A DNA stretch of 23,326 bases from a virus: IMG/VR virus record IMGVR_UViG_3300006920_000258, positions 1 to 23,326 of that record; one strand, 5' to 3'. Positions 1 to 5,858 of the stretch are shown here, piece by piece (position 1 is the first letter of the stretch; each line of letters opens with the position of its first letter). The translations under genes were made by a program, and so were the position numbers. The notes below the pieces were generated by a model. The model worked only from the letters and a program-made list of their open reading frames with translations, ran no database searches and was not told the DNA's origin.

Positions 1-410
1 AAGTAGAATTCTATAATCATAGTTGCCCATGAGAAAACCTCTTCTAGCTTCAATACTGCACCTGCTTGTACAGTTACATATTCAATTGTATCTCTTGTAA
101 GTTGGAAACCCAAAACGGATATTCCTTCAGTTAAGTGAGGCACAACTGTTTCAATGTTCATTAGTGGTGGTGCAACTTGAGTAAATATTATCAATGCTAA
201 TATTACAAAAATTATTACTCTACGATTGAGAGCCGCCATTGGACTCTCTTTGTCTGCTCTGTCTCTTGCCTGATTAATAGAGTCATTACGAGCTTGTAAA
301 CCTTGCATCATAAGTTTCTGTTGCTCTTGTGCGGCATGTTGTTTAAGAGCAAACAATTTAGCGACAAAGCCAAGTGCTATTGGTGCTATGTTTGTAAGGA
401 AACCTATCAT
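1..410 (-). CDS. Holin-like membrane protein, partial (runs off left end)
   Basis: This reading frame is open to the window edge and gives 136 residues. The ATG at 408-410 overlaps the stop of the preceding gene as ATGA, so translation is probably coupled. The N-terminus is amphipathic or hydrophobic (FLTNIAPIALGFVAKLFAL, residues 4-22), followed by a charged Gln/Arg/Lys helix (23-64). A clear membrane segment lies at about 65-82 (VIIFVILALIIFTQVAPP). The visible end (EVFSWATMIIEFY) looks like the start of a further hydrophobic stretch. The layout, charged linker then hydrophobic segments and an aromatic tail, recalls the three-helix GTA-type holins and a membrane protein I associate with marine phages. 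The position at the end of the late operon fits a lysis role. The holin role is inference, and the missing C-terminus prevents a topology call. Confidence 0.7.
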   Translation of the reverse strand, partial: MIGFLTNIAPIALGFVAKLFALKQHAAQEQQKLMMQGLQARNDSINQARDRADKESPMAALNRRVIIFVILALIIFTQVAPPLMNIETVVPHLTEGISVLGFQLTRDTIEYVTVQAGAVLKLEEVFSWATMIIEFY

Positions 411-595
411 AAAAGTTTCATAATTATTTCGCCGATTCCAATATCAGCCGCTACCATAACTGCAAAGCCTATCAATAATCCTTTACCCATAGACATAAAC
501 TTTAGATTCATGTTCTTTATTTCTCTCACGTCTTTATAAAGGTCGGCAATCTGCTTCTCGTGTCTATCGAGCTGTGCTTGTTGTTTAGCTGTCAT
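407..595 (-). CDS. Small coiled-coil plus single-TM protein, holin/XhlA-like
   Basis: This 62-aa protein has a charged N-terminal helix with heptad character (residues 5-30, RHEKQIADLYKDVREIKN) and one hydrophobic segment near the C-terminus (about 38-56, GKGLLIGFAVMVAADIGIG). That order resembles the XhlA/hemolysin-type accessory holins, which sit in the inner membrane beside a holin. It lies between a 15-residue micro-ORF, whose TGA overlaps this ATG, and the membrane protein at 1-410, with which it shares an ATGA junction. A GAGG ribosome-binding site lies 5 nt before the start, inside the micro-ORF. The family assignment rests on layout and context, because no diagnostic motif is visible. 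It could instead be an anchor for the neighbouring coiled-coil proteins. Confidence 0.7.
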   Translation of the reverse strand: MTAKQQAQLDRHEKQIADLYKDVREIKNMNLKFMSMGKGLLIGFAVMVAADIGIGEIIMKLL

Positions 596-658: not shown

Positions 659-1129
659 TCAGTTACTAAGTGGGTTGTCTAATGACTGCTGTATACGCTT
701 CATTAGTTTTTCTTCCATATCGTCCATCTGTATATCAAATTTATCAAGCTTGTTATCCATTGTTGTAATCCGTACATCAACAGATTGTAATTTAGTGTCT
801 AACCTATTTTCTAGATTATATTGTGCTGTGCGTAATCTAGCAAGGTCTTCTTTTAGTTCTACCTTTATTTCTTTAGCTACTGTTTCAACTCTTAGTACAT
901 CTGCTGATGTCTTAGCCATTTGTCCTGCAATAGCATCTAAGTCCAAATTTGCGATTCCTTCTACTTTTTGGTACATTAAGAATGCTCCATAAAGTGAACC
1001 AATAATCGTTGAAAGAAGAGCAAATGCACCTACTAGCTGTGTATATGTAAACCTTAGACTTCCTATCTTTAGTCTTTTATCGACCAAGCCTTCAATTTCT
1101 GCTACCTTGTCACCTAAATCAGTTGTCAA
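659..1129 (-). CDS. Inner-membrane coiled-coil protein, TTG start
   Basis: The 156-aa product has an N-terminal cytoplasm-like stretch, one membrane segment (about residues 29-52, TYTQLVGAFALLSTIIGSLY) and a long charged coiled coil to the C-terminus (about 70-150, with repeated hydrophobic a/d positions such as ENRLDTKLQSVDVRITTMDN). The start is TTG: no in-frame ATG precedes the membrane segment, and AGGAG at 1136-1140 lies 6 nt upstream. It overlaps the end of the exported coiled-coil protein at 1119-1550. Single-pass proteins with a long helix occur among spanin or holin accessories and as envelope-spanning scaffolds. Which applies here cannot be read from the sequence. Confidence 0.72.
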   Translation of the reverse strand: MTTDLGDKVAEIEGLVDKRLKIGSLRFTYTQLVGAFALLSTIIGSLYGAFLMYQKVEGIANLDLDAIAGQMAKTSADVLRVETVAKEIKVELKEDLARLRTAQYNLENRLDTKLQSVDVRITTMDNKLDKFDIQMDDMEEKLMKRIQQSLDNPLSN

Positions 1130-1550
1130 ATCCTTCTCCTAATTGCATAGATTTTAACAGTTCTATTTCTTGGCGCAACTTTTCGACCTCAAGCCTACGT
1201 CTCTGAAGCTCAAGCTGATACAAAGTGTTGCAATTTATACGCTCATTAGGTGCATCAAGAGGTATAACAATTCTTGCGTAAACACCTATTTGTTTTGCTT
1301 CAGGGTTGTTTGGGTCTTCTTTGCCAATGATTGGTGTCACAGCGTTGTTCACAATGCCTGTCATTCCGACATCAAATACTGTTGAACCGCCAATGCTATT
1401 GCTACAGTCTAAGTCACCTGCTTTAATACTGTCTGTACCAAAAGATGAACCACCACTTGGCAATTGTAGGTTTAAGGATGTGCTACTGTTAGCTATAACT
1501 TGTGTACTAAACATAAACAACAGCAAACATTTTATTTGAATTTTGAACAT
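1119..1550 (-). CDS. Exported protein with C-terminal coiled coil
   Basis: The product is 143 aa. A Sec-type signal peptide (Lys-containing start, LLLFMF core) likely ends at QVIA-NSS near residue 20. The mature part starts with a Ser/Gly-rich stretch (residues 21-40), has two cysteines (C49, C107), a conserved-looking block IGVYARIVIPLDAPNERINC at 88-107, and a helical coiled coil at 108-136 rich in Leu, Glu and Arg (LELQRRRLEVEKLRQEIELL). I associate the GVYARI...INC block with exported proteins of marine phages, but no function is known to me. The start overlaps the preceding gene by 19 nt. The coiled coil directly precedes the gene for a membrane-anchored coiled coil, so pairing across the periplasm is plausible but unproven. 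Confidence 0.72.
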   Translation of the reverse strand: MFKIQIKCLLLFMFSTQVIANSSTSLNLQLPSGGSSFGTDSIKAGDLDCSNSIGGSTVFDVGMTGIVNNAVTPIIGKEDPNNPEAKQIGVYARIVIPLDAPNERINCNTLYQLELQRRRLEVEKLRQEIELLKSMQLGEGFDN

Positions 1551-1906
1551 ATCCTAGTAGCTAACAAAGTTTGACTCTCATCGTTACTCCTTAATTTAGA
1601 TAAAGAACAGACATATCTAGCTTCTGTTATGTTACTTTCCCTAATGTATATATCAATTTTAACTTCTTGCAAGTATTCGACAGGGAGAATCTTATAAGCT
1701 GTAACAAAGGGTATTGGTTGCCAATCCCCATCGAATACTCCTATTTCATAATACTCTATATCAGGTCTAGAATTCCACAACCTGATTTGTGTTTTTTTTA
1801 CTTCACTTATACCACTCGCTTTCCAAGTAGGATAAGTAGGTGTTTGCTCATGACTATGTACTGCGTAATTAAACAGTAACAAACATAATGCTATTGAGCT
1901 ACGCAT
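1532..1906 (-). CDS. Exported single Ig-like domain, PapD-chaperone-like
   Basis: The product is 124 aa. A signal peptide (MRSSIALCLLLFNYAVHS) is followed by one domain of about 105 residues. The strand pattern resembles the N-terminal domain of periplasmic pilus chaperones: a basic strand with 'KKTQIRLWNSRPDIEYYEIG', then GDWQPIPFV, then a hydrophobic/Pro strand (KILPVEYLQEVKIDIYI), and a final ARYVCSLSK strand. Two cysteines in the mature part (in RYVCS and TRICSK) could form a disulfide. Classical chaperones have two such domains and about 220-240 residues, so this would be a half-size version. It overlaps the pilin-like gene upstream by 16 nt, which fits a chaperone/subunit pair. The resemblance is by eye and the homology is uncertain. 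Confidence 0.65.
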   Translation of the reverse strand: MRSSIALCLLLFNYAVHSHEQTPTYPTWKASGISEVKKTQIRLWNSRPDIEYYEIGVFDGDWQPIPFVTAYKILPVEYLQEVKIDIYIRESNITEARYVCSLSKLRSNDESQTLLATRICSKFK

Positions 1907-2382
1907 TCAGCTAATACAACTGCTTTATATGCACCACCCGGAAACGCTCTGTTACCACCATATACAGCTACTGACGTTGATTGTAGCCAAACACTACCCT
2001 CCACGCTAAGTGGGTAAGAACGCATTGCACCTGTGGTTGTACTAGCAGACTGGTAACCTGACATCCCATCTGCTCCTGTAGCTTTTACAGACACAGCACC
2101 AGTCCACGTTACATTGTCAGACAATGATGGACTTGAGCTAAAGCTAGTTGGGTATGTTACTTGTGCGTAATAAGCATCAGCAAGTGTAGTATCAAAGCGA
2201 ATTACAGGTACTTGACCATTACTAGCAGGGTCTGTTGTTAGCGTATAAGCATTTGGGTTGCCATATTTACCATCTGTTGTTGTAGATACTGTACATCTGC
2301 TTTCCACAGTTCCATCAATATCTGCGGCTATAATTGGTGTTGCACTAAGTATGAAGCTAAGTGCGATTAATAGTTTTCTCAT
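1891..2382 (-). CDS. Exported pilin-like beta-sandwich protein
   Basis: The 163-aa product has a textbook signal peptide (MRKLLIALSFILSATPIIA, cleaved near residue 19-20). The mature part is almost entirely Thr/Ser/Gly/Val-rich beta sequence. One Cys lies near the start (C30, TVESRCTVSTTTDG) and one near the end (C160, YKAVVLAECVAQ), the latter after a GG-A-Y strand. A near-terminal Cys pair, small size and a C-terminal 'G-x-Y-x-x-x-V' strand are typical of fimbrial or spore-coat-U-type subunits, but no family signature is exact. The gene starts in an ATGA overlap with the gene at 2379-3242 and overlaps the chaperone-like gene downstream. An exported surface or periplasmic fibre subunit is one reading; a secreted lectin-like domain is another. 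Confidence 0.65.
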   Translation of the reverse strand: MRKLLIALSFILSATPIIAADIDGTVESRCTVSTTTDGKYGNPNAYTLTTDPASNGQVPVIRFDTTLADAYYAQVTYPTSFSSSPSLSDNVTWTGAVSVKATGADGMSGYQSASTTTGAMRSYPLSVEGSVWLQSTSVAVYGGNRAFPGGAYKAVVLAECVAQ

Positions 2383-3242
2383 TTGTATTGCTCCTCTATC
2401 ATCTCGTTCATTCTCGCATCCTGCGATAAGCTCCTTAATGCTCTCCTATTATCCACTATCGTACCACCTTGTAAAGCTACAGTATCAGGGTAGTAGTTGT
2501 CAGGTATCGTAGACACATAGTAGTTTGTTAAATTAGTTACATTGTTTAATTGTTGTAATATGACTGACTGTGTTATTTCATTAGCTATAGTCAACGCATT
2601 TTCAACATCAGCTAACATAAATTCTAAAGATTCTTCATCCTTTTCTTCCTCTTCTTCTTTTTCAGCTTGTTCATCATCTAACAATTTTCTGTCTGTTTCA
2701 GCTTGTGCAATAGCTACTGACTCATCTTGCAAAGCATCATAATCAGGTATGTCAGGCAAAGGTGGTGGCTCAGGTTTTTTATACCCCGGACAGTTAGGGT
2801 CACTTTGTGGGTCAAAACAAGGGTCAAATCTGTAGATGTATCTTACATCAGCATTTTCTATACTACCTGTACCTTCTTCTTTAAGTCTACCATTACCAAA
2901 AAGTGCTAGAGGTGTATAAGGCAAAGCAATAGTTCTTCTTACTTCAATACCACCTTCGCGCTGTGACCAGTTCTGTACATCCTGAAACACATAACCACCA
3001 CCTACTTTATCGTTTTCAAGTGTAACAACGTAATCATCTTCTTTGTTTTTTATTGGAGTGTACTTGTAAGTAACACCTGATACATCCATGCCACCAATAC
3101 CATCAGCACCAAGATAAGTAGGAGTCATTGTCCATTCTAAGCCACTTATAGCTACGTTAGGTGTGTAGCCAAATGTGTATGCATTTACGCTAGAAGAACA
3201 AAAAAGCAGAAGCGATAGCACCCATAATCTTGATTGCATCAT
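2379..3242 (-). CDS. Exported two-part protein (beta domain, acidic helical tail)
   Basis: I place the start at the ATG at 3240-3242 (287 aa) and not at the longer frame beginning at 3332. AGGAG lies 7 nt before it, and the product then begins with a signal peptide (SRLWVLSLLLFCSSSVNA) cleaved near residue 21. An N-terminal beta-rich domain (about 22-140) ends in DPCFDPQSDPNCPGY, with C142 and C151 probably paired. Next come a Pro-rich linker (157-166), an acidic stretch of Glu/Asp at 189-206, and a helical, Asn/Gln-rich C-terminus. The DPC..DPQSDP.C element reminds me of exported proteins in other marine phages, with no known function. It still overlaps the upstream gene by 53 nt, the longest coding overlap in the operon. 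Confidence 0.72.
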   Translation of the reverse strand: MMQSRLWVLSLLLFCSSSVNAYTFGYTPNVAISGLEWTMTPTYLGADGIGGMDVSGVTYKYTPIKNKEDDYVVTLENDKVGGGYVFQDVQNWSQREGGIEVRRTIALPYTPLALFGNGRLKEEGTGSIENADVRYIYRFDPCFDPQSDPNCPGYKKPEPPPLPDIPDYDALQDESVAIAQAETDRKLLDDEQAEKEEEEEKDEESLEFMLADVENALTIANEITQSVILQQLNNVTNLTNYYVSTIPDNYYPDTVALQGGTIVDNRRALRSLSQDARMNEMIEEQYK

Positions 3243-3771
3243 CTCTTTTCTCCTGTGCAGATTTTTCATGTTCACGAGTTGGTACTGGTATGTCTTCTGT
3301 ATGTACTTCCCATGCCGCAGTTGCCTCAGCACCTATTTTGCCCATATAGGGGCAGGGAGTTCCTGCCATAGCCATCGCTCTGTGGATTTCCCCAGAGGGG
3401 TCAGCACATAGCAATGAGACTGCCGCAACCTTCATACCAAAATCATACAATGTTTTAGCGTTTTTAAGTCTCAGGCAATTTTTTTCAGTATAAGTAGCAC
3501 CAAGGCTTAATGAAAATATCTGTGTACCCATTGCACCACTAGATGAAATTGTACAAAGGTCTGAGTTATTACCACCTACGTTTGGAGATATGGCACTTGG
3601 TGGAGGTGATTTAACTGTAGTAGTGTTATCTGATGATGTAGTCACAGTAGACGTTGTATTCTGCGTTATTGAGCTTTTATCTTCAGCATAAACAGATACA
3701 GGAATAACTAGAATAATCCAAAACGCGGCTACTATGCCAAATGCTATTGTGTTGTTAATACGTCTGTTCAT
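3190..3771 (-). CDS. Exported four-cysteine protein
   Basis: The product is 193 aa. The N-terminus has three Arg/Asn residues and a long hydrophobic core (IAFGIVAAFWIILVIPVSVYA), cleaved near residue 29 or kept as an anchor. A Thr/Ser/Pro linker follows (31-65). The core domain has four cysteines (C73, C99, C122, C140) that could make two disulfides. Its conserved-looking blocks are NCLRLKNAKTLYDFGMKVAA (98-117) and AMAGTPCPYMGKIG. The C-terminus ends in a second hydrophobic run (MGAIASAFLFF) after a charged helix. I associate the LYxxGMKVAA and AGTPCP motifs with marine phages but know no function. It is coupled by ATGA to the AT-rich gene upstream and opens the run of five exported products. 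Confidence 0.7.
   Translation of the reverse strand: MNRRINNTIAFGIVAAFWIILVIPVSVYAEDKSSITQNTTSTVTTSSDNTTTVKSPPPSAISPNVGGNNSDLCTISSSGAMGTQIFSLSLGATYTEKNCLRLKNAKTLYDFGMKVAAVSLLCADPSGEIHRAMAMAGTPCPYMGKIGAEATAAWEVHTEDIPVPTREHEKSAQEKRDDAIKIMGAIASAFLFF
3250..3254 (-). promoter_or_regulatory. Shine-Dalgarno AGGAG that decides the start at 3242
   Basis: AGGAG with 7-nt spacing to a double ATG (3237-3242) lies inside the 3' end of the gene at 3190-3771. It supports the shorter form of the downstream protein, which begins directly with its signal peptide. Confidence 0.7.
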
Positions 3772-4460
3772 ACTAAATTTTCTTTGATTAATTTAATAGT
3801 TCTTTCTTTTACTTTGATTGCCTGTTGTTTTTTATAAAACCAATCTAATGGTTTAAAATTTCTTGTTCTGTAATCTGATATTCTTTGTCCTGTCATTGCA
3901 TTTTCGATTTTTTCGCTGTTATAAAACCTTTTAAACTTTATTTTTTTATTAGTGTTGAATTTAACATAAGCATAAATATCACCTTCTTTGATTTCAACTC
4001 TATTTTCTCTAGCATGAAAAGCACAATCAAGAGGTCTAACGTATTTGCCAATATTCATTTTCCCAGTAACTAAAATTGCTGAATTATTAAAACTGTTATT
4101 TTCCATCATTGATGGTAAGTATTCCATCTCTAAGTCTTTTGTATCTGCAATAAATACATATGACATATGAAAAGAAGCTAATTTTGATTTTAAATCTCTT
4201 AACTGTAAAAATTCTTCATAAAATTTTTGGTCATGCATATCTGATGATACATCATTTTTTTGAAACTTAATTCTGTAATCAAACAATGACTTTAAACAAA
4301 ACGTGTTTTTATATTGTTCATGAAATGATGGGCAATGCATGTATTGATAATTTGTAGCTTCTTTTCCCTTAAAATAATTTTTTATCATTGGCACAGGTTC
4401 TTCAGCTCTTATTTGATATTTAGTATCATATGACCAATAAACAGTAACTTCATTAAGCAT
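3768..4460 (-). CDS. Protein of unknown function in AT-rich accessory cassette
   Basis: This 230-aa soluble protein is rich in Lys, Asn, Tyr and Phe, with no signal peptide or membrane segment. An N-terminal block holds CPSF (43-46) and KNTF (51-54), followed by FDYRIKF. I vaguely associate that pattern with uncharacterised proteins of marine T4-like phages; the function is unknown. A basic C-terminus (WFYKKQQAIKVKERTIKLIK) suggests a helix that could bind nucleic acid or a partner. It overlaps the 2OG-oxygenase gene by 8 nt and shares that cassette's low GC (about 27% in one sampled 60-base line). It may act with the oxygenase, but this is inferred only from linkage. Confidence 0.65.
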   Translation of the reverse strand: MLNEVTVYWSYDTKYQIRAEEPVPMIKNYFKGKEATNYQYMHCPSFHEQYKNTFCLKSLFDYRIKFQKNDVSSDMHDQKFYEEFLQLRDLKSKLASFHMSYVFIADTKDLEMEYLPSMMENNSFNNSAILVTGKMNIGKYVRPLDCAFHARENRVEIKEGDIYAYVKFNTNKKIKFKRFYNSEKIENAMTGQRISDYRTRNFKPLDWFYKKQQAIKVKERTIKLIKENLV

Positions 4461-5091
4461 TTTTTTTCTCCAAAATAATGTTTCCTGCTACAGATATTCT
4501 TTCAACGTCTGAGAAAAAAGGTGTGACTGAATGTTGCATCCAAGATGGAAAAATAAAAACTTCACCTTCATGTGGCATTTCTTCTACTGTATTTATTGCA
4601 AAAGGAAGTGCTTCACCATGATGAAATTGAATTGTTCCTGTGCCTTCACTTTTAAATCTTTCTTTTGTTTTTTTGTTTTCTTCAATCAATTCTTGTGGTA
4701 TTTTTAAATATATAACAAAAGATAAATCGCCGCTATGCATGTGTCTAGGATTAAATTCTTTTGACTTTTGGTAATTAATCCAAAGCTCACAATTTTTAAC
4801 TTTAAATGGTGTTACAATATTTGTCGCTGTATTTTGCCAACTTTGTAAAAATTCATGTTCGTAATGTTTCAAAGGTTTTGCGAACATAGGTATAAACCAT
4901 TTCATAACATCTTTGTAGACATATTCATGTTTTATTGCACCAACTAAATTATGATTGTAATTGTTTGATTTTTTTTTAATTAACTTACCTTTATCTAATA
5001 ATGTTTTTTTTAGTAAGTTAGACACACTCGTTTTAATTAATAAACCGCCCCAATATGGAAATCTATAATTATTTTCATTTATAATTTCCAT
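4453..5091 (-). CDS. Putative 2OG-Fe(II) oxygenase
   Basis: The 212-aa length suits the small oxygenases of the PF13759-like phage group, which use 2-oxoglutarate, O2 and Fe(II) to hydroxylate a substrate. The core pattern is visible. NPRHMHSGDLSFVIYLKIP (114-132) supplies the first His and the acidic iron ligand (H119 or H117 with D122). GEVFIFPSWMQHSVTPF (176-192) supplies the second His (H187). R198 in ERISVAGNI would bind 2-oxoglutarate. The first 80 residues are Lys/Asn-rich with no known domain. The start is the TAATG junction with the sulfotransferase gene, so the two are probably co-translated. The substrate is unknown; phage members of this fold have been proposed to act on proteins, nucleic acids or small molecules. 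Confidence 0.8.
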   Translation of the reverse strand: MEIINENNYRFPYWGGLLIKTSVSNLLKKTLLDKGKLIKKKSNNYNHNLVGAIKHEYVYKDVMKWFIPMFAKPLKHYEHEFLQSWQNTATNIVTPFKVKNCELWINYQKSKEFNPRHMHSGDLSFVIYLKIPQELIEENKKTKERFKSEGTGTIQFHHGEALPFAINTVEEMPHEGEVFIFPSWMQHSVTPFFSDVERISVAGNIILEKKNA

Positions 5092-5858
5092 TACTTAGTA
5101 TTTAGCAAATTCATTAAATCAGCATCCCATTCTGTAGATTTTGCAATTAACTTATCACTTAAATAATCATCTACATTTATTTGTTTATTTTTAATTTTGT
5201 CTGTACGAATAGTGTGATGGTCTGAAAAAAGAACACTATCATCGTATACAATACCATTCGCACTAAACTGTTCAAACTCCTTTGTTTTAATTGGTTTGTA
5301 TTCTTCTCCTATGTAATTAAATACTTTCTTAATAGTTTCAACTGGCTTAGATACTAATTCATCATAAGTTAAAAACAAATATTCATCCTCGCTTTGCAAA
5401 ACATTAACAATAGAAGTAGCGGTCATATTCATAAAACCTTGTGTATCCATAAGATGATTAATCATCACATCTTCGTTTTCGTATGCTTCAGCTTTCATAA
5501 AAGAAGCAAAGCATTCTGCTAGTGGTCTGTAAAGTATTATGAATTTTGGATTAGGTGATATGTAATCCTTAAGCATTTTATAATTAATAGGAGTTCCCCA
5601 ACTACTCCTATCTATTATTGTTTTTGCTTTGTAGTCTTTGTAATAACTATGTAAGACACTTTTTTGTACATTATTAAGTGCGTTTTCATCAGGAAAGTTC
5701 CTAAACCCATCGCTTTGTTTTGTACATTCGTTTTGCCATAGTAAATCTAATATAATAGAATTACCTGTGCAACAGACTTTTTTGTTTTGATTTATTAAAC
5801 TACCAAAAAGCGTATTACCTGCTCTTGGCAAACTAACTAAAAAATAAAAATTTTTCAT
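5091..5858 (-). CDS. Sulfotransferase (PAPS-dependent family)
   Basis: The 255-aa product matches the sulfotransferase fold. A 5'-phosphosulfate loop sits at the N-terminus (FLVSLPRAGNTLFGSLINQN, residues 6-25; PRxGxT at 11-16). The 3'-phosphate-binding region is KFIILYRPLAECFASF (105-120), with R111 and S119. The late helix LTYDELVSKPVETIKKVFNY (163-182) is the usual YEDLV-like element. Such enzymes transfer sulfate from PAPS to a hydroxyl or amino group of glycans, lipids or proteins. It opens an AT-rich three-gene cassette and has a very strong ribosome-binding site. It sits directly after the tail-fibre genes, which fits modification of a surface polymer, but the acceptor cannot be read from the sequence. 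No export signal is seen, so it should act in the cytoplasm. Confidence 0.87.
   Translation of the reverse strand: MKNFYFLVSLPRAGNTLFGSLINQNKKVCCTGNSIILDLLWQNECTKQSDGFRNFPDENALNNVQKSVLHSYYKDYKAKTIIDRSSWGTPINYKMLKDYISPNPKFIILYRPLAECFASFMKAEAYENEDVMINHLMDTQGFMNMTATSIVNVLQSEDEYLFLTYDELVSKPVETIKKVFNYIGEEYKPIKTKEFEQFSANGIVYDDSVLFSDHHTIRTDKIKNKQINVDDYLSDKLIAKSTEWDADLMNLLNTK

Follow-up and report, generated by a model that had tools for sequence, protein, structure and literature searches.

Gene content and organisation of the locus

The virus record IMGVR_UViG_3300006920_000258 from IMG/VR, analysed here over a stretch of 23,326 bases (the window), is, by its genes, a marine podovirus-like phage, whose minus strand encodes portal, major capsid, scaffold and tail fibre. 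Following the fibre gene and a segment of variable cargo come five genes for exported proteins, here called E1 to E5, then a membrane coiled-coil gene (TM6), a small gene (s7) and a holin-like gene (hol8) (Table 1). This block is recurrent in more than 100 other marine viruses and probably encodes a complex of the host cell envelope, organised around a pair of proteins (E3 and E4) of pilin and chaperone type. The five open reading frames (ORFs) were confirmed, overlapping and on the minus strand, where an initial annotation made from the sequence alone had placed them; given this overlap, the genes may be co-transcribed.

Table 1. Positions of the module genes, their neighbours and a lipoprotein gene of related phages (window coordinates, unless a locus is given)
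Feature	Position	Strand	Description
E1	3190..3771	-	exported; signal peptide ends VYA
E2	2379..3269 or 2379..3242, by start choice	-	exported
E3	1891..2382	-	exported; pilin-like Ig-type domain (predicted)
E4	1532..1906	-	exported; single-domain, chaperone-like (predicted)
E5	1119..1550	-	exported; N-terminal alternating strand
TM6	659..1129	-	one transmembrane helix, then coiled coil
s7	407..595	-	62 residues; coiled coil and transmembrane; between TM6 and hol8; linked to the module by position only
hol8	3..410	-	holin-like membrane protein; truncated at the window end
small lipoprotein gene	L002:10580-10822, L018:10805-10975, L019:11464-11655	-	lipobox

E1 contains a PPPSAISP linker, a conserved core with four cysteines (GTPCPY) and a hydrophobic C-terminal tail. 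E2 has a beta-rich N-terminal region, a CFDPxxDPxCPGY motif, a proline-rich and acidic linker and a C-terminal segment ending in IEEQYK, and it begins with a signal peptide whichever of its two possible starts is chosen. Between 3190 and 3269 one stretch of DNA is read in two frames, giving the E1 tail in one and the E2 signal peptide in the other. Relatives keep this overlap, and because of the shared DNA the tail was not taken as proof of a membrane anchor. E3 carries Cys30 and Cys160, and its C-terminal end (CVAQ) falls on the last predicted strand. E5 combines an alternating N-terminal strand of SLNLQLPS type (85 of 127 variants) with a coiled-coil-like C-terminal helix, which is preceded by two conserved hydrophobic strands. 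Finally, TM6 has a conserved NPLx at its C-terminus.

Export signals, cysteines and selection

Signal peptides were sought by rule: an N-terminus had to show a positively charged n-region, a hydrophobic core and an AXA-type site. E1 to E5 were the only ORFs to pass among the 29 of the window. Their unique homologues passed at rates of 0.94 (E1), 0.94 (E2), 0.99 (E3), 0.94 (E4) and 0.97 (E5). Of 1,099 other ORFs in the same contigs, the passing fraction was 0.06 with the called start and 0.086 when any start was allowed. The signal-peptide-type N-termini that the initial annotation had seen on all five genes are shared by 94-99% of homologues, versus 6-9% of this background. The paired cysteines that it had pointed out were also recovered: more than 90% of the variants have the same even mature count, with four cysteines in 153/164 variants of E1 and two in 125/134 of E3, 115/122 of E4 and 120/127 of E5. 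Compared with five relatives, codon differences lie mostly at position 3 in all six genes (17/8/49 for E3 against locus L003), which indicates purifying selection on the module.

Conservation of the module

Viral contigs were fetched by scans with E3, E1 and E4, and the gene order recurs in them. Mapping with hidden Markov models gave 331 loci, which form 145 non-identical groups, 77 of them untruncated. E1 is present in 76 of these 77; among the 76, TM6 is found in 74 and E2 in 62, and E3-E4-E5 behave as an all-or-none unit, complete in 58 loci, with one frameshifted partial. These counts support the conservation of the five genes as a set, and likewise the link, noticed initially, between the run and a membrane coiled-coil gene. 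E1 matches at least 599 viral stretches, and it occurs in 35 of the 36 phage records that were searched whole, normally in single copy. Among the contigs bearing the module, some have unrelated capsid neighbourhoods, and the module was also seen in phage-looking contigs of two metagenome-assembled genome bins, one Rhodobacteraceae and one Bacteroidetes.

In one branch lacking E3-E5, a gene of 104-107 residues, beta-strand-rich and outer-membrane-protein-like, lies between the E2-type gene and TM6 (L097:8635-8949, L104:7023-7334 and L096:5841-6161).

Predicted structures of E3 and E4

The pilin-like character of E3 and the PapD-like character of E4 were guessed from sequence ahead of modelling; the initial annotation had missed both folds. 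For the AlphaFold model of E4 (predicted local distance difference test, pLDDT, 88.5), Foldseek returned PDB matches of which 30 fell below E 0.001. Most of these are pilus chaperones; the top ones (SafB, FaeE, DraB, FimC, Caf1M) have a probability of 1.00, with E 1e-4 for SafB and FaeE. Mature E4 (about 106 residues) comprises one immunoglobulin (Ig)-type domain, whose modelled fold resembles the N-domain of the PapD/FimC/SafB chaperones; among viral predicted structures, the model matched only unnamed or Ig-type entries. The last two strands of the model hold Cys100 and Cys120, and x-[K/R] follows the latter cysteine in 121/122 variants. FGL chaperones have an F1-G1 disulfide and a conserved lysine in the G1 strand (PMC4133393), and the last-strand cysteines and C-x-[K/R] motif of E4 resemble this arrangement, the disulfide of E4 being putative. 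As regards the anchoring arginine that pilus chaperones have near the N-terminus, the first strand of E4 has no conserved basic residue, and Arg47 is invariant elsewhere in the protein. As for E3, the best Foldseek matches of its model (pLDDT 82) are pilin domains (PapG, FimG, PapF, CfaB, PapK and Caf1), and CsuA/B was also matched.

The pair thus recalls chaperone-usher pili in its predicted folds and in being encoded by adjacent genes for exported proteins. It differs from them in several ways: E4 has one domain instead of two, neither sequence matches a pilin or chaperone model, there are extra partners (E1, E2, E5 and TM6), and no usher (PF00577) exceeded the cut-off in the 36 records, the E. 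coli control being positive. Because of the single domain of E4 and the lack of an usher in these records, the module is not a chaperone-usher pilus. From the models, E3 and E4 may nevertheless work by the strand-complementation principle of pilus biogenesis.

The location of E3 is suggested by one clade. A lipobox (mostly LTGC, with the cysteine at residue 16) is found in 30/134 E3 variants, against a background of 0.5%, and the +2 residue is Ser or Ala. The lipoprotein +2 sorting rule is known from enteric bacteria, and by this usual rule E3 is placed at the outer membrane in that clade, which by analogy suggests that E3 acts at the same surface in other clades too. The initial statement that no lipobox is present therefore holds for the window and fails for the family.

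Relatives in cultured phages and family searches

Homologues of E1 were found in the pelagiphages HTVC115P, HTVC202P, HTVC023P, HTVC033P and Baldr, in the myovirus Mosig, in the Roseobacter phages CRP-207 and CRP-810 and in phages from spring water. An E1/TM6 core is common to pelagiphages, Roseobacter phages and a T4-like phage; HTVC027P, a phage of the pelagiphage transcriptome paper, is absent among the E1 matches. In the relatives that were opened, the E1 homologue is followed by a large exported-looking ORF and then by a small membrane coiled-coil protein, usually ending in NPLx. TM6 matches its pelagiphage counterpart with a profile probability of 96%, and E2 weakly matches the second pelagiphage gene (430-610 residues; hhalign probability 46%). 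A fusion of E2-E5 in this second gene was considered and dropped, since the E5 profile gave no match to its C-termini. In Vibrio T5-like phages, homologues of E3 (29% identical) and E5 (32% identical) flank an E4-like ORF; the three are immediately followed by genes for a small lipoprotein, a holin and an endolysin.

Scans of Pfam, NCBIfam and PHROG gave no functional family for E1-E5; the PHROG matches of E1 (20531), E3 (25895) and E5 (37374) are families with no assigned function, and E2 and E4 have none. PDB sequence-profile searches with E1, E3, E4 and E5 were empty or gave chance matches. No match was obtained by a distant nucleotide search in phages or by tblastn of E2, E3 and E4 against GenBank phages. 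In the cultured carriers that were opened, the module genes are annotated as hypothetical or by names without support in our searches. For example, GenBank names the E1 homologue of Roseobacter phage CRP-810 (L118) 'OmpA family protein' and its TM6 homologue 'lysozyme'; the lysozyme family PF00959 was not found in this record. Neither library searches nor the CRP-810 paper yielded virion proteomics for cultured homologues.

Lysis genes and comparison with known envelope systems

Holin-like genes are found near the module in 42/77 loci, some of these holin labels being our own. In the window, a direct search with hol8 gave PF11351 (GTA_holin_3TM-type) only below the cut-off (E 0.055), and hol8 is linked by profile (probability 91.5%) to module-adjacent relatives in loci L115 and L119; PF11351 was matched among neighbours and in Mosig. 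The closest known parallel on the side of lysis is that of spanins (Rz/Rz1). TM6 has an i-spanin-like topology, with an N-terminal transmembrane helix and a coiled coil that we infer to be periplasmic, E3 is an outer-membrane lipoprotein candidate in one clade, and holin and lysin genes are often near the module. Unlike spanins, however, the module gives no Rz-family match (PF03245 was not found in the 36 records, with a positive E. coli control), it has several larger exported proteins in place of one small o-spanin, and its lipoprotein is present in only part of the family. Many true spanins are missed by PF03245.

The known phage envelope sets are the curli genes of pelagiphages and Melnitz, which are defined by CsgG (PMC9599517, PMC9004378). 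These genes (CsgG/CsgF, type VIII secretion) are likewise exported multi-gene sets of marine phages with suggested roles in lysis or exclusion, but folds and gene content differ, and CsgG (PF03783) was not detected in any of the 36 module records, controls being positive, in agreement with what the initial annotation had noted for the window.

Proposed mechanism and alternatives

We propose that the phage builds a complex of E1-E5 and TM6 in the envelope of its host. E1-E5 would be exported via Sec, and TM6 would be retained in the inner membrane and extend its coiled coil into the periplasm. E3 would be a pilin-like subunit whose Ig fold is completed by a partner strand, and E4, as a PapD-like chaperone of one domain, would fold or complete E3. 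A candidate for the replacement donor strand is the alternating strand at the E5 N-terminus (SLNLQLP). With E3 at the outer membrane, E2 and E5 would span the periplasm by linkers and coiled coils, and TM6 would close the bridge. Late in infection, after the action of holin and endolysin, the outer membrane would be broken or fused in a spanin-like manner. Direct support comes from the signal peptides (by rule), the co-conservation, the predicted E3 and E4 folds and the lipobox clade; to these we add strand donation, complex formation, topology, timing and the lysis role by inference. Also on the side of the proposal are the i-spanin-like topology of TM6, the holin and endolysin genes next to E3-E4-E5 in Vibrio T5-like phages, the holin-like genes near 42/77 loci, recognised lysins within 3 kilobases (kb) of the module in 22/77 loci and the failure to find an Rz-type i-spanin in the 36 records. 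An envelope complex around the pilin-chaperone-type pair appears probable to us. The proposal as a whole, with strand complementation and a late lysis role, is tentative and falls somewhat short of likely.

Several observations weigh against this scheme. The Foldseek matches of E3 are modest (E from 0.004, none below E 0.001, template modelling score 0.35-0.43), the E3 of the window has an ordinary cleavage site and belongs to a clade without an E3 lipobox, and the assignment of the E4-like ORF of the Vibrio phages (20% identical) rests mainly on its position. The count of 22/77 loci with recognised lysins is biased because its seeds were drawn from the module neighbourhood. When three lysin families were searched in the 36 whole records, 14 lysin genes were found, four of them within 3 kb of the module (in ctXG6705, in Morian, in HTVC023P and in an uncultured record). 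About 2.5 were expected, as estimated from record lengths, which puts the observed number close to chance, and the linkage to lysis is therefore not established. In several T4-like contigs, the module is away from any known lysin. Finally, spanins are one or two small proteins, and six genes are far more.

The trans-envelope complex put forward initially, for lysis, superinfection exclusion or cargo release, is still the most economical reading, because of the inner-membrane topology of TM6 and the lipoprotein form of E3 in part of the family; such an apparatus is plausible and has a structural basis in the predicted E3 and E4 folds. Among the roles, late breakage of the outer membrane is our leading guess, with surface exclusion close behind as its main rival. 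In the latter, the infected cell would carry E3, together with E1 and E2, on its outer membrane or embedded in it, with TM6 and E5 as anchors, so as to mask receptors, block secondary infection or make cells adhere. The pilin-like fold and lipoprotein form of E3, the position of the module after the tail-fibre gene of the window and its lack of ties to lysins in whole records suit this remodelling, for which the superinfection or sibling-capture roles proposed for the curli genes of other pelagiphages offer a precedent (PMC9599517). No usher and no CsgG-type pore that could serve a surface fibre was found in the 36 records, however, the inner-membrane coiled-coil partner of 74/76 loci would be superfluous for a surface mask, and many loci have holin and endolysin neighbours, so that we regard it as possible, on the unlikely side.

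A secretion or uptake channel is improbable. E5, E2 and TM6 would here form an envelope conduit that plays the part of the phage CsgGF pore, E3 being the secreted subunit and E4 the chaperone. This accords with a multi-component exported set having an inner-membrane partner, with the two conserved hydrophobic strands of E5 and with the CsgGF precedent in marine phages (PMC9004378). CsgG is absent from the 36 records, though, and the window contains neither an identified outer-membrane barrel nor a cargo gene for such a channel. That the E1-E5 products are assembled into particles, their N-termini being processed by another route, is very improbable: the genes do lie downstream of structural and tail-fibre genes, but signal peptides are retained in hundreds of homologues, E3 lipoboxes, paired cysteines and the chaperone-type fold of E4 do not fit virion parts, and the genomes carrying the module are podo-, sipho- and T4-like, their virions being unrelated. 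Lastly, chance hydrophobic N-termini without biological meaning can practically be discarded, since even for a rule-based predictor (not SignalP) the enrichment over the same-contig background is large and the genes are under purifying selection.

Neighbouring genes

Between the fibre genes and the module (3768-5858), the variable cargo of the window consists of a 2OG-Fe(II) oxygenase, a phrog_17480 protein and, judged by eye, a sulfotransferase-like ORF; relatives hold other genes at this site. A DUF1353 protein (PF07087) directly follows hol8 in close relatives (L002:8408-8899, L018:8841-9338 and L019:8421-8915), a spot beyond the window end. A probable class 3 lipase gene lies directly downstream of TM6 at L304:8680-9387, L332:7771-8475 and L333:7556-8263 (PF01764 among neighbours). 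In HTVC115P, a gene annotated as toxin-activating lysine-acyltransferase (L113:11285-11734) is located about 3 kb from the module, and PF02794 was matched at one neighbour elsewhere. An opposite-strand, probably early, region of related phages encodes the small lipoprotein of Table 1 (57-81 residues, with a lipobox such as LTGC or VTGC), a candidate superinfection-exclusion lipoprotein.

Significance

The module is common in ocean phages. No report of a phage-encoded pilin/pilus-chaperone pair was found in the open-access literature, within which E3 and E4, on the strength of their predicted folds, would be the first such pair. In its boldest form, which we hold to be rather doubtful, our proposal is that of a mobile multi-protein trans-envelope machine common to unrelated marine tailed phages, in which usher-free donor-strand complementation would join a pilin-like protein at the outer membrane with a coiled coil of the inner membrane and open the outer membrane at lysis. 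The recurrence of the block points to a so far undescribed machine that the viruses would build in the envelope of their bacterial hosts. It would be a testable candidate for the disruption or remodelling of the outer membrane by phages of marine Gram-negative bacteria that have no recognisable spanins.

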